A DNA stretch of 64,000 nt, taken from positions 41,333,319-41,397,318 of the forward strand of contig CM069457.1 of assembly GCA_035610835.1 (NCBI GenBank), given 5' to 3'. The translations under genes were made by a program, and so were the position numbers. Source of the stretch: Ophiura sarsii. Taxonomy: Eukaryota; Echinodermata; Ophiuroidea; Amphilepidida; Ophiuridae. Positions 24,369 through 53,962 of the stretch are shown here, piece by piece (the stretch's first letter is position 1; every line of letters begins with the position of its first letter). Below the pieces are notes generated by a model. It was given only the letters and a program-made list of their open reading frames with translations, made no database searches and had not been told where the DNA came from.

Positions 24369-24599
24369 AGCTTCCTGATTGGAACAGGCTTCCTGATTGG
24401 AACATGCTTCCTGACTGGAACAGGCTTCCTGATTAAAACATGCTTCCTGATTGGAACAGGCTTCCTGACTGGAACAGGCTTCCTGATTGGAACAGGCTTC
24501 CAGATTGGAACAGGCTTTCTGATTGGAACAGGCTTCCCGACTGGAACAGGCTTCCCGATTGGAACATGTATTTTGTTTGGAACAGGCTTCCTGACAATG
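24369..24599. repeat. 18 bp minisatellite, about 13 copies
   Basis: The unit is cttcctgattggaacagg with point variants (gactgg, acatgc, cccgat). Eighteen is a multiple of three, so frames stay open and translate as LPDWNR repeats. There is no start context or splice signal to support a gene. Confidence 0.95.
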
Positions 24600-25156
24600 T
24601 TAATGTCAACATAATGTCAGTCAAAAAAGCTACAAATTACCTCTTGAATCACACGGATGTCTAGTTTTATATTTGTCTGGTGTTTTTATGCATAACTATT
24701 CTTATTTGTGTAAGTTGCTTCTATTGACCATGGCTGGGCATCTTTGATACATCAAATCTCTACATAGTACTGTCAACAAGTGCCTTTGATTGATCACTAA
24801 TTGAACATTTAAGGCATATCCTAGCTTAACATATATAGTATGGTAGTGTTAAAATGCATCGCAGGCCCGTTTGGGGATCTTAAAGCATATAACAGCTGCT
24901 CTATATAGTTCTGTCAAAAAGTTGGTTGGTTTGAGCAGATTGGGTATCTATCAAGCACACCACAGTTTTGGAAAGTACTATTTACAAGTTCATTTGTTTG
25001 ACCATGTACTAATAGAGTGTCAGACGCAAATCACAGCTGTATTTAGTACTGTGTAAAATTTGTTTTGCTTAAATAATGGCAGCCCATACACTACCAAGCA
25101 CTGCCATAAAACTCCTAATTAGTTTGACTAATGGCGTCTAAGGCATATATCTATGT

Positions 25157-26783: not shown

Positions 26784-26953
26784 CTAAGTTGCACCGTCAA
26801 AAAGTTGCTGGACCAGTGATTTGTGATTTTGAATCATATTTTGATACATATCTGAGCCTGATTTCTCCCCATCAAGGCTTTGCTTAGCAGTCGTTGGCTT
26901 CTGTTTCCGAGGACTTCTCCTCCTCTGGTTGAGCCTCTTCAAAATTTGAGACA
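26784..26953 (-). CDS. Exon 11 of the long gene (C-terminus and stop)
   Basis: The acceptor is ttttcaaaacag. The frame runs in phase 1 for 170 nt to TAG at 26784-26786. It encodes VSQILKRLNQRRRSPRKQKP, a Lys/Ser linker, and a final helix MIQNHKSLVQQLFDGAT. Confidence 0.84.
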
Positions 26954-32900: not shown

Positions 32901-35900
32901 CTAAATAAATCCAAATAAACTGCTCTAAAAAAGTTCTGAAATTTGTTTCAATCACAATTTGTTCAAATATATTTAGTGTAATATATCCTTTAGAAGCTGA
33001 TGTGTTCATATCTTTACAATGATATCCAATTTGAAGCAATCCCTTGTTCCAGTGCTCAGCCACATGCTTGAGAACTTGAGGTAGCAATCAGAAAGTGCCA
33101 CACTATTTTGTGCTTAAAAATCAATAGATCAACACACTACATGTATACTGTAGTGGTCAATGTAACACTTCATCGAACAGACGGCAAAGATGTTCTTTTG
33201 AGCACGAAATAGTGTTGATTTTGGCACATTCAGATAGTGACCTCCCCATGTTCTCAAGCAATTAGCTGAGCACAGGAGCAAGGGATTGCTTTAAATTTGG
33301 TATCATTGTAAAGATGAACACATCAGCTTTACATGGATATAAAACACTTAATGAACATATCCCATGATATTTGAAAATGTTGTGCTCGAAAAAAAAACCA
33401 GAACTTTTTTTGAGCAGTTTATATCATTCTGTCACATCACATCCTGTAACCTGCCATGTCAATCCTGATTTGCTTTAATTGTTGACTCACAAGATCTTTT
33501 TCAAAGGATTCATAGTGCTCTAAAATGAACAGAAAATATTAGGCCAAATAAAAATATATATATGTGTTTAGCATGCAAGCTCGCTCCTGGATCCGCTTCA
33601 ATTTAATTTAATTTTCATTTCAGTCATAACATTTTTGTTCAGGTGTTTCAGAGTTAATGTTTGTAACAGCTTTGTCTCTACCTTATCATCATATTAAACA
33701 AGTTTTGTGGTGAAAAAATCCCTCAGAACCATGAAATAAAAAGCTTTAAAGCTCGGAAAGTTTATTGCTAACAAGGAAGATTTTGCACTAAAAAGTTGTT
33801 TAAAACAGGGGAGAAATGGTCGTCCTCCTTCCTTTTTTGAAAAAGTATGGGCGCTAAACATGTGGTGTTTTTACTTTGCCTTAGGCCCCCTACAAATTGT
33901 TTGTTTGTCGATGTCCGACTGACCGTGTACTATATTATTATATAGTCCCGACTGTGTAACTTTTTTCCTTTCTTTTTTCATCAAAAAAACCACCAAATTA
34001 TTGAAATATATTTTTTCTATTTTTTACAATTGTTTTTTCAAAGTCATGTATATGGCCTTAATCGACCCCACATGACCCTTCAAGTGACCTCATACCATGT
34101 ATAGTATTATGTGAGTTATTTTGGGTCAAGTATAGGTCATCCAAAAGATCTGACATTGTTCAGAATTTGGCGTACTGGCTAGGACTGGGCCAGAACCACT
34201 AGCAAAAAAAATCAAAACAAATCCAACCTTGCGACCATACCTTTTGAGGACCCTCTATGGACAAGGACTGGGTCAGAACAACCACTAGCAAAACAAAACA
34301 CACAAAAAATCCGACCCGCCTACCCTACCTTTTGAGGACCCTCTATGGACAAACAAACCATACTTTTTGCCTTATCAACATACCTGCATGTGTCTATGTT
34401 CGGCTTCCTTAACAGCCAATTGCTGACTAATCGTGGACAGCCTGGCCCGTACTTCAGCATACCTACAATATATAATATTAAATACCTGAAGTTGTGAATT
34501 AGAGGTTAATGACTGCGCATCAGTTGTTTAGAGGGTACTGTGGAAATTCAAAACATTTCACTTTGGTACCGAGGGATTTCCTAAGGGGCGTAGCCTCATG
34601 GGAAAGGTCATTCTCTACCGGAACATTTGATCACCGCGAAGTATTAAAATTGCGTGTTGAGAGATGGCAGTTTTTAATCATTTTTATGATATGTATGATG
34701 CGTTCGTTGTTCTATATAACTACGTGATTTAGGCTCGATAATTCGACAGTGTTGTGCTTGCTGGACACCTCCTTTAACCCCCTGGGGTCTACCTGTCTAT
34801 CTTACAGTGGTTCTGATTGGTTTATTACAATACAAGATGTACTCATTTGAATAGCCAATTAAAATGCAGTTCGTAAACAATTTCACTCCAATCTTTATCA
34901 GGGATACAACTATTCTAACACTGTTTCTGATTGGTGCAATAAATGATGTATCTATCTTTCTGACCAATCGGCCGGTAGTTCTCAGGGGGTTAATGCAACC
35001 AGCAACTTACCTGTTGCTCAATTGGTCCATCTGTTCTGATGTAGAACCATCACCATTACCGGCAGCAGGCCATTCACATGGATAGTGCTCTAGAATCCTG
35101 ATAAATGGACCTGTCTATCTTACAGTGGTTCTGATTGGTTTATTACAAGATGTACTCATATGAATAGCCAATTAAAATGCAGTTCGTAAACAATTTCACT
35201 CCAATCTTTATCAGGGATACAACTATTCTAACACTGTTTCTGATTGGTGCAATAAATGATGTATCTATCTTTCTGACCAATCGGGCGGTAGTTCTCAATG
35301 CAACCAGCAACTTACCTGTTGCTCAATTGGTCCATCTGTTCTGATGTAGAACCATCACCATTACCAGCAGCAGGCCATTCACATGGATAGTGCTCTAGAA
35401 TCCTGATAAATGGAACAGGCGCAGACTAGAAACATTAATTATTCTACACAGTTGGTGTGGATTTAGATGTCAGCAGGCAATTTGATATTGTGTCAGAGTA
35501 AAAAAATTGCATGCATGTTCCAAAACATTCTTTAAAAAAAGATGACAATCTTTAAAAACACACACTTACATGTATTCAGACTAATAGTCAGTTGCACTTA
35601 AAAGTGGGCTTTAAAAGTGAACACTTTTTAACAAGTGATTGCATTTTATTTAGGGAAACCATTTTGGGGAAGTCATTCAGGGAAGGGAGAGCCTGCTGCC
35701 CCTCCCCCCCACCAACGTGTAGTGAAATCCGACCAACAGCACTGTGTCAACAATTGTTGTTTTAGGCCATGAAAAAACCTTGTTCTTCAGGTAAACTTTG
35801 ACACTTTATTAACACTCTTTGTTACTTACGTTAAAATTTACGTACAGAGCTTAAGTAACTTTTTACCCCCCTCTCCTTGCGTTACGTATGCAATAAATGG

Positions 35901-38900
35901 TAGCCATTTCATTACTCATATGAGAGTGTTGTTAAAAAATATTGTATTGAAGATGAATTGCCGTATTTTACAACATATGAAACTGACACCCCCACATTCC
36001 CTAAAGAAAGAAACAGTTATATATTTAGAAACTTCAGGTATCATCATGCAGACGTGACGTAGCGAGGGGTGGGGGGGGGGGGGGGGGGGGGCGCTTATGT
36101 ACAGAAGCACAAAATAAGCCATGTAAGAAGCGGATCTAGGCAACCTTAAACTCTTCTTAAGCCTTGTTCAGAGAAATGTTATCGCCCTCAAAAACGATGC
36201 AGTGGGGCAAACGCGGGGCAAGAAAACATCTGGGGCATGCAACACTTGTGGGGGGGGGGGGGGGGGGAGGTCTGAAATTAGATTAGCTTGGGAATTTGAT
36301 GACCCACTCCCCATGTTAGGTACGCTTTGTACGTAACTGTAAATTACAAACATCATGGATGGCCCCTTAGTCCATGAAAATCCTTGCTCTATGGGCACAC
36401 AGACCTCTGTTGGTGAATTTTCAACAACAACAATAACAACAACAAATCAAAATTGTCAAACATTTTGACAAAATGGATCGGTCGGGCCCTTAGAACAGGG
36501 TTCCTATTTGTGGCCATAACACTTTCCATGCGGCTATTATAGTTATACCATACAAAACAGATTTTTCAGAAACCTTTACCAACTTTCAAAGTCTATCTCA
36601 TGAATTACTGAACAAAATAAAAGGCATCTTTGTACCTATATTGTAATGCAATTCTCATGGTGACTCCAAATACGGTGATGAAATTCAATAATGTTACATT
36701 TATGAAATATTTTGTGAAACTTTTGAACTGTCGTCTGCAGACGACCACCGCGTGGAAAGTGTTAAGGGGGCTGTAAACCTTCAGCAGTTTTATACTGCTG
36801 TAACTTCTTCATTATTCATTTAATCTATATAAAAGTATACAGTTTTTTGCAGAAAAGGGTTCAATGAATTCAACCATGATAATAAAATTGTCCATTTTGG
36901 AGAAAATTATAAAAAAAACGTTTTTTGACCCATTTTAGGTTCTGCAAAGATAACTCAAAATATATTTTGTCAAATTTTGTCATACTAGTTTTATTATATT
37001 CCTAATACAATTCCCTAGGAATGGTTTTTTTTTAAAAACTCTTTATCATTTTTTGAATTATTGACCCAAAAATCACAAAAAGTGCCAAAAATGTGATTTT
37101 CATGATTTTGGAGCTAAAAAAATAATCATCATATTTTCACATGCTGAAGGTGTACAGCCCCCTTAAGGCTAGCTCTATTTGTGACATGACCTTGGTTTTT
37201 TTTTAAAACTTACTCATCCAATGATGCTCCAATCCTGAGACTGCCTCGAAGTTTTCCTACCCCTCCTTGTGTTCTCGTTTTCTGCTCTTGACCTCTAATC
37301 TCATCCAACTTTATGAGTACTTTTCTCTGGTTATGACGACTCAGGCTACGACCAAGCTCAGAACTCATTGCTATATTCACTGAATATACAAAACATGGAT
37401 GTCATAAGGCCAAAAAAAAGAAGGTCTGTGTCTCACATAAATTAACAGGTATTAACAGGTATTTGAAACAACAGAACACAAACAAATTTCTACCCATTGT
37501 TTGGTTATAGGACGGCGCGGACATACGGGAGTTTTTAGCTATTTTGAGCAAATTTTCTTGGCAACCAGTGTTTCAAAAGCAAAATATTCCATGCACGCAC
37601 TCAATGCTGAGCGTTACGCACTTGATTCGCAGTAGGCGCAATGTGCGGTTGCCTTAATTGATTGATCTGCACAAGTTGTTTTTGTTTTCACCAGCATTTG
37701 ATTGTTTTCACCGGCATGACGTAGGTCCGCCCCAACCTATATAGCTCAAAATTAACATTGGTGATTTCCGACTCATATTTTCTATTTTCTGTAAAGTAAT
37801 GAACTGATCTTCTATTTCATATAAGTATTGGCCTAATTTATCTAACAGGAATCTGTTATATAAACTGCTCAAAAAAGTTCAGAAATCACAGATACAAAAG
37901 ATGGATCAGAGAGGCTATCAAGATCAGAAAGAGAGGGACCTCCATGATGAACCGCGTAAGGGGTAATACAATCTCATCCACATTTTCGATGATCTTTTAT
38001 CATCTGGCAAAAAATCCCCAGATGAAAAATCAACTGGCAACTACAAGACTGCAAAAAAGCGTTGCGAGTCGTCAAGATCATCACACTCAAAAGTGTTGAC
38101 AAAGGATACAGAGGTATCCGAAATGTACACGCGTGAGTACCTTTACACTGGATCAGTAAAATGAACATTCAATATCAGTTAAGGGACCTAACCACCGTTA
38201 AGGGGGTGTGGACTCTCTTGTACAGCCTCTGTAAAACTGCTGTAACTTCTTCAATATTCATTTAATCTTTATATACAGGGTGTCCCAAAAGTCTATGCAC
38301 GACTTTGAAGCTGTGGATTTCACAAAATATAAGTCGTATTGAAAATATGAATACATATTTAGAAAGAGGAGATGTGGGAGATAATGTTGATACCAAACAT
38401 TGGAGTAACATCTGTTTGTAATGCCACCCTATGAAAAATATGTATTACTGCAAAAATGTAATTTTATACTTCGGAGGAATAAAGTTCATAAATCCATACC
38501 TATTGAGATTAACAAAAAGACGGGTAGAGTTGGTTACACGGAAAGTGATCCGTCAAATGTAATATTTAAAATTTTACCTCACAGTGATCCCATTCATAAT
38601 AACAAACTATATCACACATAATTTTCGTTTATAGTGAAATATAGTTTAAATGTTTTGTTTGATCTGAATCTTGTATGGAAACTTCTTCAAGTCCTCACGC
38701 ATAATTCTGTGAACAGTTGATCTTTTAATCTTGTTTTCTGCGGAAAGTCGGCGAATAGATCTCTTTGGTCTTATAACATCAATGTGACTTGTTGATCAAC
38801 CAGTCTTTTTTCTACCACATCAAGACAAATCATGCACAGTTCCTGTGTTCAAAAATGTATCCACCAACTTCACAATGGATATTCTTCCTGGTGCGCGTTT

Positions 38901-41900
38901 CACTTTGAAATGTTTTTTGAACTTTTGTTGAGTAAGTTGAACTGAATTTGTTTCAGCGTAGAACCATACAATTTGTATTCGATGCAGTAAACCATCTTGA
39001 ATGAAGACTTTTGCTGTGCAATGTTGTCTACTGCGCCTATTCATGTTGTGAGTGACCGAGTTTGGTAATAACATTAATGTTTCAAGGCAAACAGTGAACT
39101 GTGACTAATGCTTTCATACCGTTAATTTATGCGCACCTGGTTTTAGCAACAATGTGTGGTATTTGGTATGGGTAGGTCTCACACGGCCAAAAACTTTCAA
39201 CCAGATTTATAATGTTGGTTGTTTACCAATAGGGTTGTGTTTGGTATCAAAATCTTTCCCAAATCTCGTCTATCAAAATATGGTTAAATTTATACCATAT
39301 GATTTATATTTTATGAGATATGACTCTTCAAAAACGTGCATAGACTTTTGGGACACCCTGTAGGTATACATTTGTTTGCAGAAAAGAGTTCAATGAATCC
39401 AACCATGATAATAAAATTGACCGTTTGGGAGAAAATTATAGAAAACATGTTTTTTGACCCATTTTAGGTTCTGCAAAGATAACTCAAAATATATTTTGTC
39501 AAATTTTGTCATACCGTAAAACGTTTCAATTTTTGTCCCAATTCACCCCCATGTCCCTATATTCACCCCGTTTTACGGTACCGTACTAGTTTTATGCTAA
39601 TCCTGATAACATTCCCCAAGGTGCTTTTTTGTTTTGAATATCTTATTTAATTTTTGAGTTATAGACCAAAAAGTGCCAAAAAATCACATTGTAAATAACT
39701 CAATGTTTATATTTTTCTCAATATGCCTCATTTACTCATGTTAGGTCAGTGGGTCACTACAACAACTGTATTAACCATAGATTTAAAAAGGAGATCTAGT
39801 ACGCCGCCACCATTTTGGAGGTATGTCGGTATTTTTCGTAAAATGCGCATAAATTCCGGAAAGCATCGCTCATTCCATGTGTTTAAACGCGGAGAGAGAT
39901 ACGACTCCAGTACGCGTACGCGACAGTCTTCATTCTTTTCTGTATAGTTCCGAAAAATTCTAACATACCTCCCAATTTCTCCCCATGGTGGAAATTCAAA
40001 ATGGCGCCCGTTACACGTAAAGAGATAGGGCAATACATTTTGTACTGAATCTCCTTTATAAATCTGTGGAATTAACTTACACTTTGCCGTTGCCTTGTGG
40101 ATTACTCTCTCTGGGAGCTCATCACTTTCATCATCCTCAAATACATACGATTCTCGAGCTGTATAATAGATGAAAAAAAAGATATTGGGTAGTACAATTT
40201 TACTTTCCCTGCTTGAGTGAGCATAAAGATCATGCTACAATCAAGGAAAATAATAGTTGGCACACTTGATACAATTTAATACAACTATCCCTGTGCTCAC
40301 AATAGAGAACCGACTTGGGACATAGCACTCTTTAATAGCACGCAGAGGTCTCTCCCTCTCTCTCATCCTTCCCCACCCCCCATCAATCAATGGTGAGAGA
40401 GCTGCCAAAGCTTCTGATGACATGTGGCTCGGATCAACATTGCCTCAGGGGAGAGGGGCACTTTTTTCCTTAATTGGGACAAAGTGTGCCAACCTTTTTT
40501 TCCTTGATTGTAGCACCCTCTCAGTGTCGTGCAAAAATACAGGATGATGATTCCTAATTAATAATATTGTGTCATAGTTTGCTGTCGTATTAAATCTGCT
40601 GCAATCAAGCAATAAATCAACACAAATTATGAAGTCTGTACTACACAAGAAACTTCTCGACCCGGGGGGGGGGGGGGGGGGGGGGGGGGGCACTCAACTT
40701 TTTTTTTTGTAGGGGTGTGCCGCACAGGGTCTCAAAAAGGGGGGATACAGAACTGAACTGAGTGGATTTTATGACGAAAAATAGGGTCTTAGGAACTGAT
40801 TTTTTTTCAAAAAGTAGGTCTTGAGAACTGGCCTATAGTTCAATTTTGATTAGCAAGAACGCACATTTTCTTGTTTTTTTGGTTTTAGAGCACAAAATTT
40901 AAAGAAAATTGGGGCTTTGGAACGCAAAATTTCGCGATTTTTGATTTTTCAATAAAATTGGGGTCTTAAGAATTGATGCAGGCTCAAAAGGGGGATCATA
41001 AGAGCTAGCAGCAGAGGGTGAAAAAGGGGGTCTTCAGCACGGCACATACCTATACCCTTTTCCAATGTCAGTGCCCCCCCCCCCCCCCCCCCCCGGGCTT
41101 CTCGACAGAATGTAATCATCAACGAATCAGAATAATTCAATCATTTTTTTAAAATAGTCAGGTTCGTAATTATTTATATCATGTAACATTAATGAGAACA
41201 GGCGAGATTTCCATCATCTCATAAAGTTAGCAAATTTGTTCTACATAATATGATATGTCATAAAAACTGAAATTAATAGATATTTAACGCTTTCCACGCG
41301 GCTATTATTTTTACCATGTATATAAGCCAGAATTTTCAGAAACCTTTCCCAATTTTCAAGATCTATCTCAAGGATTACTGTTCCAATGCTAGCCATGTTT
41401 GTACTTATTTCAATGCATTTCTTATGGTGATTCCAAATATGGTAATGAAATTCAATACTTTTGTTGACATTTTTGAAACATTTTGTGAAATTTTGCAATG
41501 TCGTCTGCAGACGCCTGCCACGTGGAAAGTGTTAAAGGCCATACTTTTTTGGCCTGGCCAAAAGAAAAGGGAACACACATTGGTGCAGTATCAATTACCC
41601 AGCGTAAAACAAATGCCTGCTGTGTCAAGTGTTTATGGGATAAATGATGACAACTTGGCAGCTCACATTTCAAGTCAGGTTTGTGGTAAAATGCAAGTTC
41701 ACTTGAATCAATATGGCACAAAGTCTGTGTTACTTGAAAACACCCAGATAATTATGAATATAACTTGTTTTGTCCAGTTTCTATAGTATTGCAAACAATA
41801 ATTATAATATTATAAATTGCAAACATTTTAAGTATTCTATTTCCATTTTAATACAAAACCATAGACACTGTGCTGTGTGTATATTGGCAGTGCAGGGCTC

Positions 41901-44900
41901 TGGTCTGAGCTGTGGGTACTTGTCACTTCACCTCTCTCAAGGTGATCATAAATATGTTGTGGAACTAATTCCCCTTTCTTCATACTGGCAGGCACACTTT
42001 ATCATCGTCTTTATGTATACCAGATTTTCAGTATGGCCTTTAAGTGACCAGACCCAATGGAGAAAAAGTTGTTGCAAATGCAAATTATTTGTCAATAATT
42101 GTTCTGGAATGGTCACCCACTCACAGTGTATAGCTTTAATTAAATTTGGTGTTAGGCAAATGCATTGTGTTATGTTTTATGTTATTGTATATTAGATTCA
42201 AACCATACTAGCATGCTTCCTAACATCAGCCGCCATGTCAACTCCTGTGAATTATTGGCTCTAAAATCAAAAGTTTCACTCAAATTGATGTAAAATAACA
42301 CAAAGGTAAAATTCTTATTTGATTCATGCTATTGATTTATATGAATGTTATTGGCTAAATTTTTCTGACACTTTTGCTAAAATTTGCCCCTCTTTCTGAC
42401 TCAACAATACCTCTATCTAATTGCAAAGGTCCTGTGAAGTGTAGACATATTATGAACCTGACTTGATAAGAACTCTTTGTCAGCCATATGGGTCAGCGCT
42501 TACCTTTCCAAACTTGCAACCTGAGTGCGAAGGTCTTGCATCCATACTAAATGGTTTAGACATTGTATGAACCTGACTAGGTCTGCCCTTACCTTTCCAA
42601 ACTTGCATCCATTGCGAAGGTCCTGCATCCATACTAAATGGTTTAGACATTGTATGAACCTGACTAGGTCTGCCCTTACCTTTCCAAACTTGCATCCATT
42701 GCGAAGGTCCTGCATCCATACTAAATGGTTTAGACATTGTATGAACCTGACTAGCTAGGAACTCTTTGTCAACCATTGGTCAGCCCTTACCTTTCCAAAC
42801 TTGTATCCATTGCGAAGGTCCTGCATCCATACTAAATGGTTAAGACATTGTCTGAACCTGACTTGATATGAACTCTTTGTCAACTTTATGGGTCAGCCCT
42901 TACCTTTCCAAACTTGCATCCATTGCGAAGGTCCGGCATCCATACTAAATGGTTTAGACATTGTATGAACCTGACTAGCTAGGAACTCTTTGTCAACCAT
43001 TGGTCAGCCCTTACCTTTCTAAACTTGTATCCATTGCGAAGGTCCTGCATCCATACTAAATGGTTAAGACATTGTCTGAACCTGACTTGATATGAACTCT
43101 TTGTCAACTTTATGGGTCACCCCTTACCTTTCCAAACTTGCATCCATTGCGAAGGTCCTGCATCCATACTAAATGGTTTAGACATTGTATGAACCTGACT
43201 TGATATGAACTATTTGTCAGTCATGTGAGTCAGTCCTTACCATTCCAAACTTGCATCCATTGCGAAGGTCCTGCATCCGTACGAAATGGTTTAGACATTG
43301 TCTGAAACTGACTTGATATGAACTCTTTGTCAACCATGTGGGTCAGCGCTTACCTTTCCAAACTTGCATCCATTGCGAAGGTCCGGCATCCATACTAAAT
43401 GGTTTAGACATTGTATGAACCTGACTTGATATGAACTATTTGTCAGTCATGTGAGTCAGTCCTTACCATTCCAAACTTGCATCCATTGCGAAGGTCCTGC
43501 ATCCGTACGAAATGGTTTAGACATTGTCTGAAACTGACTTGATATGAACTCTTTGTCAACCATGTGGGTCAGCGCTTACCTTTCCAAACTTGCATCCATT
43601 GCGAAGGTCCGGCATCTATACTAAATGATTTAGACATTGTCTGAACCAGACTTGATATGAGCCCTTTGTCAACTATATGGATCAGCCCTTATCTTTCCAA
43701 ACTTGCATCCATTGCGAAGGTCCTGCATCCATACTAAATGGTTTAGACATTGTCTGAACCAGACTTGATATGAACTCTTTGTCAGCCATGTGAGTCAGTC
43801 CTTACCTTTCCAAACTTGCATCCATTGCGAAGGTCCTGCATCCATACTAAATGGTTTAGACATTGTCTGAACCAGACTTGATACGAGCCCTTTGTCAACC
43901 ATATGTGTCAGCCCTAACCTTTCCAAACTTGCATCCATTGCGAAGGTCCTACATCCATACCAAATGGTTTAGACATTGTTTGGACCTGACTTGATATGAA
44001 TTCTTTCAACAATATGTGTCAGCCCTTACCTTTCCAAACTTGCATCCATTGCGAAGGTCCAGCATCCATACTAAATGGTTTAGACATTGTATGAACCTGA
44101 CTAGCTAGGAACTCTTTGTCAGCTATATGGGTCACCCCTATACCTTTCCAAACTTGCATCTATTGCAAAGGTCCTGCATCCATACTAAATGGTTTAGACA
44201 TTGTATGAACCTGACTAGCTAGGAACTCTTTGTCAGCTATATGGGTCACCCCTATACCTTTCCAAACTTGCATCCATTGCAAAGGTCCTGCATCCATACT
44301 AAATGGTTTAGACATTGTCTGAACCAGACTTGATATGAACTCTTTGTCAATCATATGTGTCAGTCCTTACCTTTCCAAACTTGCATCCATTGCGAAGGTC
44401 CGGCATCTATACTAAATGGGTTAGATATTGTCTAAACCTGACTTGAAATGAACTCTTTGTAAAGCCATATGGATCAGCCCTTACCTTTCCAAACTTGCAT
44501 CCATTGCGAAGGTCCGGCATCCATACTAAATGGTTTAGACATTGTAGGAACCTGACTTGCTAGGAACTCTTTGTCAACCATATGGATCAGCCCTTACCTT
44601 TCCAAACTTGCATCCATTGCGAAGGTCCGGCATCCATACTAAATGGTTTAGACATTGTCTGAACCAGACTTGATATGAACTCTTTGTCAACCATATGGAT
44701 CAGCCCTTACCTTTCCAAACTTGCATCTATTGCGAAGGTCCTGCATCCATACTAAATGCTTTAGACATTGTCTGAACCAGACTTGATATGAACTCTTTGT
44801 CAACCATATGGATCAGCCCTTACCTTTCCAAACTTGCATCCATTGCGAAGGTCCTGCATCCATACTAAATGGTTTAGACATTGTCTGAACCAGACTTGAT

Positions 44901-47900
44901 ATGAACTCTTTGTCAACCATATGGATCAGCCCTTACCTTTCCAAACTTGCATCCATTGCGAAGGTCCTGCATCCATACTAAATGGTTTAGACATTGTATG
45001 AACCTGACTTGCTAGGAACTCTTTGTCAACCATATGGATCAGCCCTTACCTTTCCAAACTTGCATCCATTGCGAAGGTCCTGCATCCATACTAAATGGTT
45101 TAGACATTGTATGAACCTGACTTGCTAGGAACTCTTTGTCAACCATATGGATCAGCCCTTACCTTTCCAAACTTGCATCCACTGCGAAGGTCCTGCATCC
45201 ATACTAAATGGTTTAGACATTGTATGAACCTGACTTGCTAGGAACTCTTTGTCAACCATATGGATCAGCCCTTACCTTTCCAAACTTGCATCCATTGCGA
45301 AGGTCCGGCATCCATACTAAATGCTTTAGACATTGTCTGAACCAGACTTGCTAGGAACTCTTTGTCAACCATATGGATCAGCCCTTACCTTTCCAAACTT
45401 GCATCCATTGCGAAGGTCCTGCATCCATACTAAATGCTTTAGACATTGTATGAACCTGACTTGATATGAACTCTTTGTCAACCATATGGATCAGCCCTTA
45501 CCTTTCCAAACTTGCATCCATTGCGAAGGTCCTGCATCCATACTAAATGCTTTAGACATTGTCTGAACCAGACTTGATATGAACTCTTTGTCAACCATAT
45601 GGATCAGCCCTTACCTTTCTAAACTTGCATCCATTGCGAAGGTCCGGCATCCATACTAAATGGTTTAGACATTGAATGAACCTGACTTGCTAGGAACTCT
45701 TTATCAACCATATGGATCAGCCCTTACCTTTCCAAACTTGCATCCATTGCGAAGGTCCTGCATCCATACTAAATGCTTTAGACATTGTCTGAACCAGACT
45801 TGATATGAACTCTTTGTCAACCATATGGACGAGCCCTTACCTTTCCAAACTTGCATCCATTGCGAAGGTCCTGCATCCATACTAAATGGTTTAGACATTG
45901 TATGAACCTTACTAGCTAGGAACTCTTTGTCAACCATATGGTTCAGCCCTTACCTTTCCAAACTTGCATCCATTGCGAAGGTCCTGCATCCATACTAAAT
46001 GCTTTAGACATTGTCTGAACCAGACTTGATATGAACTCTTTGTCAACCATATGTATCAGCCCTTACCTTTCCAAACTTGCATCCATTACGAAGGTCCTGC
46101 ATCCATACTAAATGGTTTAGACATTGTATGAACCTGACTAGCTAGGAACTCTTTGTCAACCATATGGATCAGCCCTTACCTTTCCAAACTTGCATCCATT
46201 GCGAAGGTCCGGCATCTATACTAAATGGGTTAGATATTGTCTAAACCTGACTTGAAATGAACTCTTTGTCAGCCATATGGATCAGACCTTACCTTTCCAA
46301 ACTTGCATCCATTGCGAAGGTCCAGCATCCATACTAAATGGTTTAGACATTGTCTGAACCAGACTTGATATGAACTCTTTGTCAGTCATGTGGTCAGCCC
46401 TTACCTTTCCAAACTTGCATCTATTGCGAAGGTCCTGCATCCATACTAAATGCTTTAGACATTGTCTGAACCAGACTTGATATGAACTCTTTGTCACCCA
46501 TATGGATCAGCCCTTACCTTTCCAAACTTACATCCATTGCGAAGGTCCGGCATCCATACTAAATGGTTTAGACATTGTATGAACCTGACTTGCTAGGAAC
46601 TCTTTGTCAGCCATATGGATCAGCCCTTACCTTTCCAAACTTGCATCCATTGCGAAGGTCCTGCATCCATACTAAATGGTTTAGACATTGTCTGAACCAG
46701 ACTTGATATGAACTCTTTGTCAACCATATGGATCAGCCCTTACCTTTCCAAACTTGCATCCATTGCGAAGGTCCTGCATCCATACTAAATGGTTTAGACA
46801 TTGTATGAACCTGACTTGCTAGGAACTCTTTGTCAACCATATGGATCAGACCTTACCTTTCCAAACTTGCATCCATTGCGAAGGTCCTACATCCATACTA
46901 AATGGTTTAGACATTGTATGAACCTGACTTGCTAGGAACTCTTTGTCAACCATATGGATCAGCCCTTACCTTTCCAAACTTGCATCCATTGCGAAGGTCC
47001 TGCATCCATACTAAATGCTTTAGACATTGTCTGAACCAGACTTGATACGAACTCTTTGTCAACCATGTGGGTCAGTGCTTACCTTTCCAAACTTGCATCC
47101 ATTGCGAAGGTCCTGCATCCATACTAAATGGTTTAGACATTGTCTGAACCAGACTTGATATGAACTCTTTGTCAACCATGTGGGTCAGCGCTTACCTTTC
47201 CAAACTTGCATCCATTGCGAAGGTCCGACATTCATACTAAATGGTTTAGACATTGTATATATGAACCAGACTTGCTAGGAACTTTTTGTCAGCAATATGG
47301 GTCTGCCCTTACCTTTCCAAACTTGCATCCATTGCGAAGGTCCAGCATCCATACTAAATGGTTTAGACATTGTCTGAACCAGACTTGATATGAACTCTTT
47401 GTCAACCATGTGGGTCAGCACTTACCTTTCCAAACTTGCATCCATTGCGAAGGTCCTGCATCCATACTAAATGGTTTAGACATTGTCTGAACCAGACTTG
47501 ATATGAACTCTTTGTCAACCATGTGGGTCAGCGCTTACCTTTCCAAACTTGCATCCATTGCGAAGGTCCGACATTCATACTAAATGGTTTAGACATTGTA
47601 TATATGAACCTGACTTGCTAGGAACTCTTTGTCAGCCATATGGATCAGCCCTTACCTTTCCAAACTTGCATCCATTGCAAAGGTCCGGCATTCATACGAA
47701 ATGGTTTAGACATTGTCTGAACCAGACTTGATATGAACTCTTTGTCAACCATGTGGGTCAACGCTTACCTATTGCAAACTAGCATCCATTGCGAAGGTCC
47801 TGCATCCATACTAAATGGTTTAGACATTGTCTGAACCCGACTTGATATGAACTCTTTGTTAGCCATATGGATCAGCCCTTACCTTTCCAAACTTGCATCC

Positions 47901-50900
47901 ATTGCGAAGGTCTTGCATCAATACTAAATGGTTTAGACATTGTCTGAACCCGACTTGATATGAACTCTTTGTTAGCCATATGGGTCAGCCCTTACCTTTC
48001 CAAACTTGCATCCATTGCGAAGGTCTTGCATCAATACTAAATGGTTTAGACATTGTCTGAACCCGACTTGATATGAACTCTTTGTTAGCCATATGGGTCA
48101 GTCCTTACCTTTCCAAACTTGCATCCATTGCGAAGGTCTTGCATCAATACTAAATGGTTTAGACATTGTCTGAACCCGACTTGATATGAACTCTTTGTTA
48201 GCCATATGGGTCAGCCCTTACCTTTCCAAACTTGCATCCATTGCGAAGGTCTTGCATCAATACTAAATGGTTTAGACATTGTCTGAACCCGACTTGATAT
48301 GAACTCTTTGTTAGCCATATGGGTCAGCCCTTACCTTTCCAAACTTGCATCCATTGCGAAGGTCTTGCATCAATACTAAATGGTTTAGACATTGTCTGAA
48401 CCCGACTTGATATGAACTCTTTGTTAGCCATATGGGTCAGCCCTTACCTTTCCAAACTTGCATCCATTGCGAAGGTCTTGCATCAATACTAAATGGTTTA
48501 GACATTGTCTGAACCCGACTTGATATGAACTCTTTGTTAGCCATATGGGTCAGCCCTTACCTTTCCAAACTTGCATCCATTGCGAAGGTCTTGCATCCTT
48601 ACTAAATGGTTTAGACATTGTCTGAACCTGACTAGCTAGGAACTCTTTGTCAGCCATATGGGTCAGCCCTTATCTTTCCAAACATGCATTCATTGCAAAA
48701 GTCCTGCATCAATACTAAATGGTTTAGACATTGTATGAACCTAACTTGATATGAACTCTTTGTCAACCATGTGGGTCAGCGCTTATCTTTCCAAACTTGC
48801 ATCCCTTGCGAAGGTTCTGCATCCATACTAAATGGTTTAGACCTTGTAGGAACCTGACTTGATATGAACTCTGTGTGAACCATGTGGGTCAGCGCTTACC
48901 TTTCCAAACTTGCATCCCTTGCGAAGGTCCTGCATCCATACTAAATGGTTTAGACATTGTAGGAACCTGACTTGATATGAACTCTGTGTGAACCATGTGG
49001 GTCAGCGCTTACCTTTCCAAACTTGCATCCCTTGCGAAGGTCCTGCATCCATACTAAATGGTTTAGACCTTGTAGGAACCTGACTTGATATGAACTCTGT
49101 GTGAACCATGTGGGTCAACCCTTACCTTTCCAAACTTGCATCCATTGCGAAGGTCCGGAATCTATACTAAATAGTTTAGACCTTGTAGGAACCTGACTTG
49201 ATATGAACTCTGTGTGAACCATGTGGGTCAGCGCTTACATTTCCAAACTTGCATCCCTTGCGAAGGTCCTGCATCCATACTAAATGGTTTAGACCTTGTA
49301 GGAACCTGACTTGATATGAACTCTGTGTGAACCATGTGGGTCAGCGCTTACCTTTCCAAACTTGCATCCCTTGTGAAAGTCCTGCATCCATACTAAATGG
49401 TTTAGACCTTTTAGGAACCTGACTTGATATGAACTCTTTGTCAACCATGTGGGTCACCCCTTACCTTTCCAAACTTGCATCCATTGCGAAGGTCCGGAAT
49501 CTATACTAAATAGTTTAGACATTGTATGAACCAGACTTGATATGAACTCTTTGTCAACCATATGGGTTAGCCCTTACCTTTCCAAACTTGCATCCATTGC
49601 GAAGGTCCTGCATCCATATTAAATGGTTTAGACATTGTATGAACCTGACTAGCAAGGAACTCTTTGTCAGCCATATGGGTCTTCACGTCACCACTCGCCA
49701 TGAAGTTGGTAGAGGCTGAGGAAGGAAACAAAAGTCAATTAATCAAAGATTCAATCAGATTTGTATTCTGAAAATGCTTATACGCACTTACCAAATTCGT
49801 TTCCATGTTTTCGCTCGAATCCCACAATTATCCAATGTGAAACGAAAATGGAACTAAAAACAATACCAGAGAGGTATGCTGATGAAGCCTTTCATATATC
49901 AGTGAGGTTCTCTACAGTGTAAGTGTACAATACAATACAGAAAGCATTAATTGTGCCATTTCCAAAAGGCTCAGAGAGCTTACAAGATAAAAACCTTAAA
50001 ATTACAACTCAAACTACAAAATGTGAGTGTAACTTGAGCATAGTACAATATATTATTTATAGTATACAAAATAGATTAGAAACAAAATACATACAGAAAA
50101 ACTGTTAAGGGAACAAATAAGTTTTATGAGCTTTTTTGAACACACTTGTAGATGATGATTGTCTAATACAGATAGGTAGCTTATTCCACTCTTTTGACGC
50201 ACCAACTGTGAAAGTTCTATCACCAGCTAGATCTCTATGATAGGGTATTGAAGACGTAGATAGTCATTAGAAGATCCGAGTGGTCTCTTTGGAACATATA
50301 ATGATAAACAATTTGACAAGTAGATTGGTCCTTGGTTATGAAGACATTGTATACACACACAGGAGTAATTTAAAGATGATCCGTTGGCGTATTGGAAACC
50401 AATGCAGTGATTTTAAAATTGGTCCAGGCGAATGTTTTCAGTCGACTTCAAAAACAAGATGTGCAAGCCCAGTTTTACAAACGTTGCAGGCGAATGATGT
50501 AAGCAGATGGTCGTGAAGAGAAGGCCATTATAATAATCGAGACGTAAGAGTATTAGTGAGAGTGTAGTCCCGGGGGCGGGGGGGGGGGCACTGACATTGG
50601 AAAAGGGTATAGGTATGTGCCGTGCTGAAGACCACTTTTTCACCCTCTGCTGCTAGCATTTTCATGCAAAATTCAAAAATCGCGACATATTGTGTTCCAA
50701 AGCCCGAATTCTTTGAAAATCTTGCGTTCTAAAACCAATTTTTTTTCTTCGTTCTTGTTAATCAAAATGGAAAATATAGGCCAGTTCTCAAGACCTAATA
50801 TTTTGAAAAAATCAGTTCCTAAGACCCTATTTTTCGTCATAAAATCCACTCAGTTCAGTTATGTAGCCCCCCTTTTTGAGACCCTGGGCGGCACACCCCT

Positions 50901-53900
50901 ACCCCCAAAAAAAGTTGAGTAATTTTTTAACTATTAACCCTAACTCAACTGAATCTCACTAAATCTCACTGCCAGAAACTATCTCCAAGCACGTGCTGCT
51001 GCATTGCCTTGATGACGTCACCTACCGCAGGCATATGTGGGCAGGAAGTTGCTGCCCGCATATGCGCTGGGAGTTTGGTAGAGGGACAGACTGGGGTGCG
51101 GATGGTCCCGCGATCGAATCTCGTGGGGGGGGGGGGGTGCTAGGTGATTTTTCGGGTCCAAAAATAGTACTTTTCCCCCCTCCCCCCCATACGCACAAAA
51201 ACATCTATAGCCATACCGGTTAGGGTTAATATGATGTAAAATGTTGACCAAAATGTGCCAACAATGTGATGAAATGTTAATTCCCCTGGCACTTTTGGGT
51301 CAACATTTTAAAAACTACAAAAGAGTCCCAGTGGAAATGTCTTTAGATAAATTTGGTGCAATTTCAGCATTTTTCACCAAAAACTGAATTTGCTACAAAT
51401 GCAGCAAATTTTGAGCGAAAAAAAGTGATTTTTTGAGCAAAAAAAAGTGATTTTTTGAGCAAAAATAAAATTTGATAAAAAAGACTCCTTTTATATACAT
51501 CATATAAATAGTTCAAGAGTTACAGCGCTTGATACATTTCATGTTGTGAGGGTTGACAGCCCCCTTAACCCCCGATTGGGGGGGGGGGGGGGGGGGGTGA
51601 ATGACCTCTTCAAATGAAATTTTCACAAATGTTCACCTTTCATATTGGGACTTTTTGAAAGCTCTGGGATGAAATCAGACCCCAACTTTTGGACCTGTAG
51701 CTCTAGTAGAGCTCTACGGCAAAAATATTTGTCATCCACTAAAATTTATTTTCACCCCCACCCCCCATTTTTTGTATTCTTTGCATGCTCGGCTGAAAAA
51801 AGACCCTCAGCTGTTTGGGCCTTAATGCTACACCTGATCAGGCATCCTATAATCTTTACATTTCAACAAAGATGTTTCTATTTTAGGTATTTCTGGTTAA
51901 ACTTTTTGAAAACTTTACCTCTGATTTTTTGTATTGAAACTTCCTCATCACTTGTCACTTCATTGTCTTCAGAAATGTCTCCCTTACGAGGTGCCTTTTG
52001 CTTTTTGCTGGCAGAGGTTGGAACTGAGTCACTGGACTTCCTTTTAGCACCTATATTGGAATTAGTGTTTAAAAATGATATCATTTATCCAAATTAGAGT
52101 TATAGTTTTGGACTGATTTCATCAAGGATTCATGAAAAATAGTTATTAAATTATGCATATTAAAGTGATTAATAGGTTTTTAGACTTTTCAGGACTCAGG
52201 TAGAGTTGGCCGATCAGGCGTGTTTGGATTTTTTTATTTGTGGCATTTTTATAAATTTCAGGTGGCTAAGCTCTGTAACAAGTAATGGCTACAAATGAGG
52301 TATCATTGGAAAGAGGAACACATCAGATTTTTCATTGATATGAAACACAATATGAATATATCACATATCTTAAATTTTGCGATTGAACAAAATGTCCAAA
52401 CTTTTTTTGAGCAGATTATTTACGAACCTTTTGATTTTGGCTTGTTTTCTCTGTAGTCTGCTTGTTTGGATCCATGATGGTAACGTGGCACTTTGTCGTC
52501 GTCTGCTGATAATGATGATGTACCTCTTAATTTTTGCTGTTTACCCTAGAAGAAAAATCACAACAGCCACAGATGAGAAAAATATGCGACCATTGTTATC
52601 ACAACAAACAGGACATGTTGTTGGCAAACACAGTTTGGAGATAGATGCCAAAATATTTAAGTGAAATATAAAGAAAAAAATTGAAAAAAAATTATGCTTC
52701 TTCAAATCATATCTAATGATTACAAAGTCTGATTATCTTCAACATGGTATCATTTCAAAGCTTAAAATGTACTCTTTCTAAAGTCATACCAATAACTCAT
52801 ATTTGACTCAGGCCTCCAACTTGTTCATTTGGGAAACACTTATGGCAGACTCTTAAAAAACCCTTTTCAGCCACATTATTGTCATCCAAACACACATTTT
52901 TTTTAAAAATGTTACCAAAAGGCATGAACATTTTGAGTCGTTTTTTTGTGCCTTCTACAGGGTCAGCTTAATTGAAGCAATTTGAATTTCTAAACCCCCA
53001 GTATGGCGGCCATATAGGAATTGGCCAATATGGCTGTCCCAATAGGCTCCAATTTTGACGTCCATCAAAAATCAAAAGAGTATGGTATGAGCAACATAAA
53101 TAGGCCAAATTTGGTGCTTTTAGAAGAATGTGAACCAAACCTCCCCTGTGATGCCCTTAGCCCCCCAACTTGGTATGAAACTGTTGGAGAAAAATAAACT
53201 GTTGCCAGGAAGTTATCTGTTTCCAACCTGACTGATACAAATTAGGTGGAGCCAAACAGTGATTTTAGTTACCTTTCGCTGTGGCGATCCTTTGTGCTTG
53301 CTTCTGAGTTGACTGTTCACTTCATCCGCTGTATGGGATGATTTTGGATCATCATCATCATCATCATCATCATCATCTTCATCATCATCATCTTCATCTT
53401 CATCTTTGTCACTCATGTCATCAAAACGGCTGCCTCTAGGAAACCTCGTCGGTGTCGAGACGAGTCTATTGCTGCAATCTGGGGACATAAATTTGTCGAT
53501 GGTTGCAGTTGACAAAGACGAGGTTTGTCTAGACTTATCGCCGCCTCTCTTACGACTGGTACTCGACTCTCTAGCTTTGCTTGATTTTCTTGATACTGCG
53601 ACATTTTTCCGCTTCCTAACAGTTCTATTCGGCGAATCTTCTTCACCTGCAGATGACATAGCGCTTTCTACATTTCTATTTCTTTCCATTCTTTGCGAAT
53701 TCTGTGACTTTATTCTGTTTGTCTCAGCGCCATCGCTTGACCCAGATTGACCGTTGACCCCAGACAACCTGCCATGGCCATCGCTATCAACAGTGCTGCT
53801 TCCCAAATCCAGATTTTCCAGGTGTGAAGGTGAGCCAGTAATTTTACTGATGTTCCCCGGTGACATGTAGCTTTCTATTCTACTTTTGCTCGGTGTAGAG

Positions 53901-53962
53901 GTCTTTTGCTTTGCACGTCGTCTTGACGATCCTGGTCTTGCTTTGTGCTTAACTGGCGCCAT
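26784..53962 (-). CDS. Eleven-exon gene for a basic/acidic coiled-coil protein (592 aa), function unknown
   Basis: This is the join of exons 1 (53962) to 11 (stop at 26784). All junctions are GT-AG and all phases agree, for 1779 nt in total. The start is ATG at 53960-53962 with A at -3 and G at +4, and an in-frame stop lies just upstream. Residues 1-230 are basic and Ser-rich, with clusters SRRRAKQK (13-20) and VRKRKN (115-120). A repeated (I)xx(Y/F)MSP motif occurs at 28-35 and 154-161, and a nearly pure Asp/Glu tract at about 185-205. Residues 231-360 continue as a Lys/Ser-rich linker. From about 375 onward the chain becomes helical, with heptad-like stretches in exons 8-10. The composition suggests a nuclear, chromatin- or chromosome-associated scaffold (inference). 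I do not recognise the family. Three exons show tandem duplication (exons 4, 7 and 11). Confidence 0.8.
28017..28330. mobile_element. hAT-like MITE (CAGGGTTGTAGCTA ends)
   Basis: The inverted ends cagggttgtagcta and tagctacaaccctg are flanked by the exact 8 bp duplication attgtgcc (28009-28016 and 28331-28338). It lies in intron 10, 45 bp beyond the exon 10 donor. Confidence 0.94.
28375..28468 (-). CDS. Exon 10 of the long gene
   Basis: The acceptor is tatttcgtttag and the donor is tcacttg then gtaaga. The exon is 94 nt (phase 0 in, phase 1 out), encoding ELHDQLKEIDSNLNSC then TDTEFKEELDRTKSL, a charged helix. Confidence 0.84.
29188..29245. repeat. Three tandem copies of a ~23 bp unit
   Basis: The unit ctttggagggaatttttagg is repeated with minor variation in intron 10. 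Confidence 0.85.
29729..30221 (+). repeat. 493 bp direct repeat, copy 1
   Basis: It runs from agattccacgcc to ggtgtgaattct and appears identical in length and sequence to 31576-32068. The ends are short imperfect inverted repeats (agattccac and gtgtgaattct), so it may be a small transposon of its own. Confidence 0.85.
30596..30613 (-). CDS. Candidate 18 nt microexon between exons 9 and 10
   Basis: A pyrimidine-rich acceptor (tttccaccaactctcag) and a consensus donor (gtgagt) bound attgaccttgtttgcaag, which encodes IDLVCK. It is phase 0 at both ends and so would fit exactly between exons 9 and 10, extending the coiled coil. It lies inside a stretch bounded by transposon ends (29387-32570), so it may be an exonised transposon fragment or a chance match. 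Confidence 0.35.
30635..30708. repeat. 37 bp perfect tandem duplication
   Basis: The block attaagattaaggtggtgtc followed by ttttttatgttgaaatc occurs twice in a row, just upstream (in transcription) of the candidate microexon acceptor. Confidence 0.9.
31576..32068 (+). repeat. 493 bp direct repeat, copy 2
   Basis: This is the second copy, at an offset of 1847 bp. High identity implies a recent duplication. The ends are not TG...CA, so a pair of retroviral-type LTRs is unlikely. Confidence 0.85.
32918..33422. mobile_element. Foldback element with AAACTGCTC ends
   Basis: The left end aaactgctctaaaaaagttc is mirrored by gaactttttttgagcagttt. The inner arms also match (caatcccttgttcc and the complement of ggagcaagggattg). 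It lies in intron 9, 69 bp beyond the exon 9 donor. Single ends of the same family occur at 37859 and 52405. Confidence 0.75.
33491..33517 (-). CDS. Exon 9 of the long gene (27 nt microexon)
   Basis: The acceptor is cattttagag and the donor is gatctt then gtgagt. The exon is phase 0 at both ends and encodes HYESFEKDL. Using the AG two bases upstream would shift the frame and create a stop in exon 10, so the second AG is preferred. Confidence 0.65.
34384..34462 (-). CDS. Exon 8 of the long gene
   Basis: The acceptor is atattgtag and the donor is atgcag then gtatgt. The exon is 79 nt (phase 2 in, phase 0 out), encoding YAEVRARLSTISQQLAVKEA then EHRHMQ. The pattern of Val, Leu and Ile fits a coiled coil. 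Confidence 0.82.
35011..35097 (-). CDS. Exon 7, downstream duplicate copy (7b)
   Basis: This 87 nt copy has the same donor (gtaagt) and the same ccatttatcag acceptor core, but the sequence upstream of the acceptor differs and is less pyrimidine-rich. The one difference seen is a synonymous Ala codon (gct/gcc). Because both copies are symmetric phase 2, transcripts could use either one or both without a frame change. Confidence 0.65.
35316..35402 (-). CDS. Exon 7, upstream copy (7a in transcript order)
   Basis: The acceptor is ctgttccatttatcag and the donor is caacag then gtaagt. The exon is 87 nt with phase 2 at both ends, encoding ILEHYPCEWPAAGNGDGS then TSEQMDQLSN. Only this phase avoids stops. 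A second copy lies about 305 bp downstream in the transcript. Confidence 0.82.
36517..36765. mobile_element. TTAA MITE of the CACTTTCCACGCGG family
   Basis: The left end is cactttccatgcggctatt after ataa (a mutated TTAA). The right end is cgtctgcagacgaccaccgc, gtggaaagtg and TTAA (36762-36765). Confidence 0.8.
36762..37166. mobile_element. TTAA MITE with GGGGGCTGTA ends
   Basis: TTAA then gggggctgtaaaccttcagc is mirrored by gctgaaggtgtacagccccc then TTAA. It shares its left TTAA with the preceding MITE. A second copy begins at 38199, and a right-end fragment occurs near 51545. Confidence 0.8.
37214..37379 (-). CDS. Exon 6 of the long gene
   Basis: The acceptor is tatattcag and the donor is ggatga then gtaagt. 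The exon is 166 nt (phase 1 in, phase 2 out). It encodes a predicted helix with LGRSLSRHNQRKVLIKLDEI followed by a basic Gly-rich segment and GASLDE. Confidence 0.82.
38276..39362. mobile_element. Tc1/mariner-like element with decayed transposase
   Basis: The inverted ends acagggtgtcccaaaagtct and agacttttgggacaccctgt are flanked by TA. The length is 1.09 kb. The minus strand retains the N-terminal helix-turn-helix part of a transposase (38820-39074 and about 38640-38820). No catalytic DDE region is left. Confidence 0.82.
38640..39074 (-). pseudogene. Transposase remnant, DNA-binding region
   Basis: The frame has VQLTQQKFKKHFKVKRAPGR followed by a TGTVHD segment, in the pattern of the helix-turn-helix region of IS630/Tc1-mariner transposases (DUF4817-type). 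After a stop and frame change, the segment containing RRLSAENKIKRSTVHRIMR fits the next helix-turn-helix region. Stops and shifts disrupt it and the catalytic half is absent. Confidence 0.6.
39513..39582. mobile_element. ~70 bp mini-MITE with CCGTAAAACG ends
   Basis: The ends ccgtaaaacg and cgttttacgg sit between TA dinucleotides, and the block is absent from the matching place of the 36762 MITE (tcatactag). The interior is repetitive (attcaccccc and attcaccccg). Confidence 0.65.
40081..40158 (-). CDS. Exon 5 of the long gene
   Basis: The acceptor is tattatacag and the donor is gcaaagt then gtaagtt. The exon is 78 nt, symmetric phase 1. It encodes ARESYVFEDDESDELPERV then IHKATAK, an acidic patch leading into a helix. 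Confidence 0.8.
40661..41097. mobile_element. CCCGGG-ended MITE family 2, complete copy
   Basis: It begins cccggg with about 30 G and ends with about 30 C then ggg. The exact 8 bp duplication cttctcga flanks it (40653-40660 and 41098-41105). The interior has gggtctcaaaaagggggg and aactgatttttt. A partial copy in the other orientation lies at 50569-50923. Confidence 0.9.
41284..41535. mobile_element. TTAA MITE of the CACTTTCCACGCGG family, compact copy
   Basis: TTAA then cgctttccacgcggctatt opens the element. The right end has gtcgtctgcagacgcctgcc, acgtggaaagtg and TTAA (41532-41535). It is 252 bp long, like 25157-25407. Confidence 0.85.
41536..42426. other. Intronic sequence, nothing recognised
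   Basis: Open frames on both strands here have no splice context that fits phase 1 between exons 4 and 5 with confidence. Confidence 0.35.
42427..49577 (-). repeat. Exon-derived 113 bp tandem array, ~63 copies, each with a 5' splice site
   Basis: Contiguous units of 113 bp, with a few of 87 bp, run without spacers. On the minus strand a unit is 97 bp matching the end of exon 4 (MxDKEF..., SKPFSMDAGPSQWMQVWK) followed by gtaagggctgatccat. Two subtypes alternate, FLASQVHT and FISSLVQT. Homogeneous sub-blocks (about 47870-48590 and 48780-49440) show local amplification. Almost every copy keeps the GTAAGG donor, but none has the pyrimidine-rich acceptor of exon 4. In the 113 bp units the frame runs into TGA just after the donor. 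The 87 bp units lack this and stay open. Confidence 0.93.
49578..49715 (-). CDS. Exon 4 of the long gene, source unit of the 113 bp array
   Basis: A strong acceptor (ttttgtttccttcctcag) and a consensus donor (ggaaag then gtaaggg) bound 138 nt, symmetric phase 1. It encodes 46 residues starting STNFMASGDV and ending PSQWMQVWK. The first 41 nt are unique. The last 97 nt plus 16 intronic bases are the unit of the tandem array that continues downstream in the transcription direction. It is the only unit preceded by a good polypyrimidine tract and AG. Confidence 0.85.
49716..50568. other. Intron 3 sequence, nothing recognised
   Basis: AT-rich. No transposon ends were found. Confidence 0.35.
50569..50923. 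mobile_element. CCCGGG-ended MITE family 2, one-ended copy
   Basis: It is the reverse complement of much of 40661-41097: ggcactgacattggaaaagg and caccctctgctgctagc at the left, cacccctaccccc and aaaaaagttgag at the right. The poly-G terminus remains only on the left. Confidence 0.8.
51545..51600. mobile_element. Right-end fragment of the GGGGGCTGT MITE plus G run
   Basis: The word ggttgacagcccccttaa matches the right terminus of 36762-37166 and ends in TTAA. A run of 19 G follows. The left end was not found. Confidence 0.5.
51919..52050 (-). CDS. Exon 3 of the long gene
   Basis: The acceptor is ccaatatag and the donor is atcagag then gtaaag. The exon is 132 nt, symmetric phase 1. It begins AKRKSSDS and ends EEVSIQKIR, basic then acidic. 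The frame is open across the exon in the predicted phase only. Confidence 0.85.
52428..52545 (-). CDS. Exon 2 of the long gene
   Basis: The acceptor ends ccttctag or similar before ggtaaacagc. The donor is aaaag then gttcgt. The exon is 118 nt (phase 0 in, phase 1 out) and encodes a Lys/Asp/Ser-rich linker starting GKQQKLRG and ending KPKSK. It is preceded on the genome by a copy of the gcagttt/ttttttgagcag element end at about 52405. Confidence 0.8.
53273..53962 (-). CDS. Exon 1 of the long gene (residues 1-230)
   Basis: The coding part is 690 nt and ends ...GSPQRK before the donor gtaact (phase 0). It encodes the basic Ser-rich N-terminus, the two MSP motifs (RIESYMSP and TIDKFMSP, loosely like PCNA-binding boxes but with Met in place of an aromatic) and the Asp/Glu tract coded by repeated gat/atc triplets. 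Reading past the donor meets a stop soon after a hydrophobic stretch, which supports splicing here. Confidence 0.85.

Follow-up and report, generated by a model that had tools for sequence, protein, structure and literature searches.

The window analysed here, a 64,000-nucleotide stretch of the Ophiura sarsii genome numbered from its first letter, carries on its minus strand a gene predicted to encode the brittle star orthologue of CENP-U (CENP-50), a protein expected to matter for cell division. Within the fourth intron of this gene lies a long tandem array whose units repeat the end of exon 4 together with its 5′ splice site (donor), and not its 3′ splice site (acceptor). The features concerned are collected in Table 1.

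Table 1. Features of the predicted CENP-U gene and of its intronic repeat array (a slash marks the exon–intron border)
Feature	Position	Strand	Description
Predicted CENP-U/CENP-50 orthologue	26784..53962	minus	10 predicted coding exons, 583 aa, terminal stop codon
Exon 4, source of the repeat	49578..49715	minus	138 bp, phase 1-1
First 36 bp of exon 4	49680..49715	minus	unique within the window, like the preceding acceptor
First 11 intron bases after the exon 4 donor	49567..49577	minus	AAG/GTAAGGGCTAA
Intronic array	42420..49577	minus	113-bp period; 63 copies with a donor position and a degenerate one at the end
Exon 5, predicted splice partner past the array	40081..40158	minus	intron 4 of 9419 bp
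Exon 7 pair	35402-35316 and 35097-35011	minus	98.9% identity across the exon

Host Gene and Source Exon

The predicted exons join with consistent splice phases at 9/9 introns and leave the reading frame open throughout the 583-residue product. Residues 330–534 of this protein matched the Pfam family PF13093 (FTA4/CENP-50) with an E value of 1.1e-13, at 51.9 bits against a gathering score of 24.8. When residues 305–583 were used as the query of a protein search (2638 candidates), the sole relative obtained at E ≤ 0.01 was an uncharacterised protein of Amphiura filiformis, another brittle star, which showed 52% identity with 99% of the stretch aligned. In a full-length alignment this protein shared 46% identity with the 583-residue model, and PF13093 was present in it as well. 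A second search, with the alignment of the two sequences as query, yielded one extra relative, P0002 (339 aa), while searches of solved structures gave nothing convincing (best E values 0.059 and 0.015). Judged by these protein matches, the gene is a CENP-U/CENP-50 orthologue. One 27-nt candidate exon near 33520, spotted by eye, was left out of the model; with this omission, the exon labels run E8, E10, E11.

Acceptors were scored with a crude matrix, and donors by their computed pairing with the U1 5′ end. On this scale the acceptor of exon 4, TTTCCTTCCTCAG, reached 7.4, the second best among the ten scored acceptors of the gene, and the duplex of its donor with U1 (−10.0 kcal/mol) was the second strongest among nine donors. 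The stretch FMASGDVKTHM..WK encoded by exon 4 is well conserved in the A. filiformis orthologue, which runs WK-AR across the exon 4/exon 5 junction, matching the predicted splice. Because the orthologue continues WKAR, the joining of exon 4 to exon 5 is supported. The leading 35 bp of exon 4 have no second occurrence in the window, where the closest other match shows 14 mismatches. The sequence supports the view that exon 4 is genuinely coding, that the array is intronic and that the donor was amplified without the acceptor; the original prediction had likewise taken exon 4 for the true exon, with a strong acceptor, and in this it was right.

A second duplication was observed in the same gene, where exon 7 is present as two whole-exon copies with flanking intron (35402..35011, minus strand), 305 bp apart. 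Given their 2-2 phase, either or both copies could be spliced in frame.

Anatomy of the Repeat Array

Alignment of the units showed that each corresponds to the last 102 bp of exon 4, starting at CCCATATGG, plus 11 bp of intron. The period of 113 bp and the mixed exon–intron composition had been predicted correctly, but the proposed division into 97 and 16 bp was a little out. Tandem Repeats Finder reported the 113-bp period in 62 copies with 92% matches (42667–49681), as well as an 87-bp variant in 3 copies (42491–42754). Counted by their donors, the units number 64 when exon 4 itself is included, the first donor lying at 49577 and the last at 42503; the spacing is exactly 113 in 51 of the 63 intervals. 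The degenerate last copy (42492–42420) aligns to positions 1–84 of the unit consensus.

We also compared the ten exons with the nine introns by BLASTN, applying the 42.1-bit threshold of Hron et al. 2026 (PMC12954441). Exon 4 gave 64 matches above this threshold in intron 4, none of them (0/64) on the opposite strand and 59/64 stopping exactly at the exon border (exon base 138). When the introns were replaced by 20 block-shuffled sets (mononucleotide shuffling in 50-base blocks), the best match reached 30.1 bits. Elsewhere the threshold was passed only by one exon 7 copy in intron 7, the other eight exons giving no match above 42.1 bits in any of the nine introns. These results bear out the earlier claim that an exon had been amplified some 63-fold with its 5′ splice site and without its 3′ splice site.

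The GT dinucleotide is intact in 61/64 units, so that the copied block carries the splice site; GTAAG is kept in 58/64 units and AG/GTAAG in 55/64 (exon 4 included in each count). AG/GT at the repeat boundary is retained in 58/64. The heptamer AGGTAAG occurs 55 times between 49715 and 42380, whereas the remaining 56.7 kb contain 4 instances on the minus strand and none on the plus strand. The GC content decreases from 44.9% in exon 4 to 42.1% in the array and 37.6% in the intron past it, the value for the window being 38.4%.

At the end of the array (42480–42779, minus strand) the last copies are devoid of a 26-bp piece, and the last two donor spacings are 87 and 89 bp. The 87-bp step keeps the frame, generating a 99-aa open frame of repeated SKPFSMDAGPSQWMQVWKGKGRPSQVHTM. 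On the plus strand, no open reading frame of at least 80 aa was listed within the array, and a coding role for that strand was dropped on this ground.

Variation among the Units

The 63 intronic units showed a mean pairwise identity of 0.910, and exon 4 was 0.901 identical to them on average; 16 of the 1953 pairs of intronic units were identical. Mean identity was 0.930 at lag 1 versus 0.908–0.916 at lags 7–24, and this greater likeness of neighbours is the pattern that local unequal exchange predicts. Five of the six consecutive units u10–u15 are identical, u10–u12 forming an uninterrupted run, and such identical adjoining units suggest recent change. The states of exon 4 at positions −42 and +10 were seen in no other unit, implying that exon and array have not recently exchanged these states.

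The units retain recognisable protein sequence, as had been noticed before, and we asked what the variation says about its maintenance. Deviation per unit across the exon part was even over the three codon positions (0.051, 0.056 and 0.058). When variants were classed against the consensus, exon 4 being excluded, 78 events in 33 codons comprised 12 synonymous, 57 nonsynonymous and 9 stop changes, whereas 2000 reshufflings gave expected values of 13.2, 57.5 and 7.3, respectively. The synonymous–nonsynonymous comparison suggested in the original prediction therefore revealed no departure from random expectation, and selection on the peptide was rejected on this ground. In their exon part, 47 of the 64 units are open, 12 contain stops and 5 are frameshifted (17/64 broken). 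Protein sequence is still recognisable in the repeats because of recent duplication and homogenisation.

The donors told a similar story. Positions −3 to +6 carry 0.89 alleles per site versus 0.88 elsewhere, giving no indication that selection maintains them. Among nine-base windows, 53/105 deviate no more than this donor segment, and among five-base windows, 45/109 deviate no more than GTAAG. With about half of the nine-base windows deviating as little, no special conservation of the donor was found. Overall, the array looks neutral, without detectable selection.

Some observations weigh against this conclusion. The mean deviation per site is lower at donor positions −3 to +6 than in the rest of the unit (0.042 vs 0.057) and, in a raw comparison, variation per site is smaller between −55 and −4 (0.030) than in the preceding part (0.084). 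Distinct variants are also fewer in the SKPF..WK core (35 in 54 sites) than in the preceding 45 sites (43), and for this reason the two-subtype split of the unit alignment is not the whole explanation. Within the core, the second codon position deviates least (0.032, 0.020 and 0.037). Finally, a search with the 99-aa reading frame of the array retrieved the fragment P0003 (62 aa, on a 578-bp contig), which contains the exon 4 motif; no recognisable repeat was seen in the 21 residues past its exon end, read in its own frame only. In the core, the 4 synonymous and 25 nonsynonymous events match the 4.2 and 25.6 expected, but the core may still be under weak constraint. P0003 gives weak evidence that the array is lineage-specific.

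Origin of the Array and Its Expected Effect on Splicing

We consider it very probable that the array is a neutral minisatellite spanning an exon–intron boundary, an instance of what has been termed exon stuttering, and that the own donor of exon 4 is the one used. There is good support for its birth as a minisatellite across that boundary, and among the options listed in the original prediction this one fits best. A segment joining the terminal part of exon 4 to the initial 11 bp of intron 4 would have been duplicated in tandem, and unequal exchange or replication slippage would then have expanded it into a 7.2-kb intronic minisatellite. With the acceptor omitted from the copied segment, the copies would serve solely as spare 5′ splice sites; they were ruled out as full exons, each being without the exon 4 acceptor. 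Splicing most likely proceeds from the donor of exon 4 itself, since this is transcribed first, lies nearest the strong acceptor and keeps the frame, and the remaining array would be removed with the intron. Use of any distal donor would lengthen exon 4 and introduce a premature stop, as read-through past the exon 4 donor meets a TAA after four codons (KGKG-stop); if this happened occasionally, the RNA would probably be sent to decay.

The same stop codon could in principle be exploited. If distal donors were used appreciably and in a regulated manner, the resulting KGKG-stop RNAs would be degraded, and the array might tune CENP-U dosage. The array donors would be fit for the task, as 44/64 of them (exon 4's own included) pair with U1 at −10.0 kcal/mol, about like the exon 4 donor itself. 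However, the donor sites show no detectable extra conservation, and we regard such a switch as unlikely. We assign a similarly low probability to the general idea of the array as a working splicing device, be it through regulated diversion to stop-carrying exons or removal of intron 4 in steps the size of a repeat, with copy number setting CENP-U dosage; functional proposals are not favoured.

A still less probable possibility is that the AG/GTAAG boundaries act as both acceptors and donors, so that intron 4 leaves stepwise, 113 nt at a time, or units are kept in ladders, in the manner of polyubiquitin UBC. The retention of AG/GT at most boundaries speaks for such dual-specific or recursive splicing. 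However, the unit-end AG (that is, the AG ahead of the donor position) scored −6.8 on average as an acceptor, below all ten scored acceptors of the gene, the weakest of which reached −3.3, and also lower than the median for AGs on that strand (−5.5); the best of these 60 sites, three of which are followed by AT, scored −5.0. Given such poor acceptor scores at the unit ends, the most fitting interpretation of the copies is that of spare donors, and stepwise or ladder splicing of intron 4 appears unlikely from these scores.

Other AGs in the array perform better. A score of −3.3, that of the gene's weakest scored acceptor, is reached by fewer AGs in the array (109 of 608) than in the rest of the strand (934 of 2850); the array's best one, at 42431, scored 2.3, above five of the ten scored acceptors. 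Cryptic exons starting from these better-scoring AGs are possible. Between the array and exon 5, an AG at 41553 (minus strand) scored 9.8, versus 5.7 for the acceptor of exon 5, making it a possible candidate for a cryptic acceptor.

The density of near-consensus donors (55 AGGTAAG in 7.3 kb) might also suggest a sink that retains U1 small nuclear ribonucleoprotein (snRNP) on the growing transcript and so shields the transcript from early cleavage, or back-splicing to the exon 4 acceptor with production of circular RNAs made of exon 4 and units. It is generally known that the snRNP is abundant, and 63 extra sites at one locus are unlikely to titrate it; moreover, the donors show no detectable conservation, so that we deem either role very improbable. 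As for a structured RNA, the folding of one unit was no better than that of shuffled sequences (z 0.78) and no Rfam family matched in the window at the gathering threshold, and this candidate was rejected.

An assembly artefact, with copies collapsed or expanded, could account for runs of identical units such as u10–u12 but hardly for the many distinct variants and the scarcity of identical pairs, and is the least credible explanation, even if the exact length of the array may be wrong in the assembly.

Other Features of the Window

On the opposite strand, upstream of the CENP-U gene, lies a remnant of a reverse transcriptase (56202–57759, plus strand), recognised through a match to RVT_1 at 56202–57332 (E 4.6e-28) and apparently continuing in another frame at 57322–57759. 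Two open frames on the minus strand, 8490–9809 (439 aa) and 13984–14892 (302 aa), have endings that look alike by eye, VEDQFQAMRECRYLR and LESQFRQLRSCRYLR; neither has a Pfam match at E ≤ 0.01, and they are perhaps paralogous proteins, judging from those endings.

A segment at 24314–24616 (minus strand) contains an 18-bp tandem repeat (12.8 copies, 24365–24594), is open in both directions and encodes a PVPIRK-like repeat that matches Pfam DUF963 barely over the cut-off. A further tandem repeat, of 212 bp, occupies 1455–3073. It has a motif, ACACTTTCCACGCGG..CGTCTGCAGACGAC or similar, that can also be made out by eye within CENP-U introns at about 36760–36520 and 41550–41290, and it is probably a dispersed element.

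Comparison with Known Systems

A literature search on CENP-U in combination with echinoderms, the kinetochore and evolution, and one requiring several boundary-repeat terms together, retrieved no paper. The splice-donor minisatellite of IFI6 (6-16), attributed to Turri et al. 1995, reportedly consists of 12-nt units. Two downstream repeat units of the IFI6 minisatellite are described as serving as splice donors (PMC4526556). The CENP-U array resembles it in that minisatellite units bear splice donors, but these units are 113 bp long, and their use would bring a stop.

The polyubiquitin gene UBC, as described in PMC10809524, contains an array of dual-specific AGGT sites delimiting coding units at 228-nt intervals, in frame, with ladder splicing. 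AGGT sits at regular repeat boundaries in CENP-U, too (58/64 units), but here the units lie in an intron, have weak acceptors and, at 113 nt, do not keep the frame. In human duplicated genes, tandem repeats at exon–intron boundaries (units of about 30 bp × 4) are described as being spliced out as novel introns (PMC2812944). Minisatellite expansion at such a boundary is common to both cases, whereas in CENP-U one old intron was enlarged by 64 units. In a potato RdRp gene, one tandem duplication at the 3′ end of an intron, acceptor included, is reported to have made a new intron (PMC4974935); that duplication also crosses a splice boundary, whereas in CENP-U only the donor side is involved, in 64 copies. 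The intronic minisatellites of C. elegans, considered in relation to splicing in PMC4039745, appear to be a less close parallel.

The nearest precedent is exon stuttering, a term for which our literature search found only Hron et al. 2026 (PMC12954441). In the account given there, an exon edge with its donor or acceptor is copied imperfectly through the neighbouring intron, on chicken dot chromosomes, which harbour 190 of the 236 such introns. In >90% of cases the exon border is no further than 1 base from the source, and the coding sequence is intact; the copies number 1–44 (median 4), span 112–23,555 bp and derive from 20–187 bp of exon (median 36). The phenomenon is ascribed to birds and said to be absent from other vertebrates except gerbils (data not shown in that paper), and the authors suggest a link with GC-rich genes that is not strictly defining (PMC12954441).

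The copies of exon 4 agree with that description in passing the 42.1-bit threshold, in reaching the exon border and in including the splice site, and the expansion is confined to one intron, with the coding sequence intact. On the other hand, the host is an echinoderm and the setting is low in GC (44.9% in exon 4, 38.4% in the window), as opposed to the GC-rich genes to which those authors suggest a link. The intronic copies are 64 rather than at most 44, and 102 bp of exon were copied as compared with the median of 36. Exon stuttering itself is already known; what is unusual here is the echinoderm host, the low GC content and the 64 copies. A case of this size in a low-GC echinoderm gene suggests that GC richness and vertebrate chromosomes are not required for exon stuttering, and it makes the CENP-U array a natural test of how the spliceosome chooses among 64 near-identical donors.

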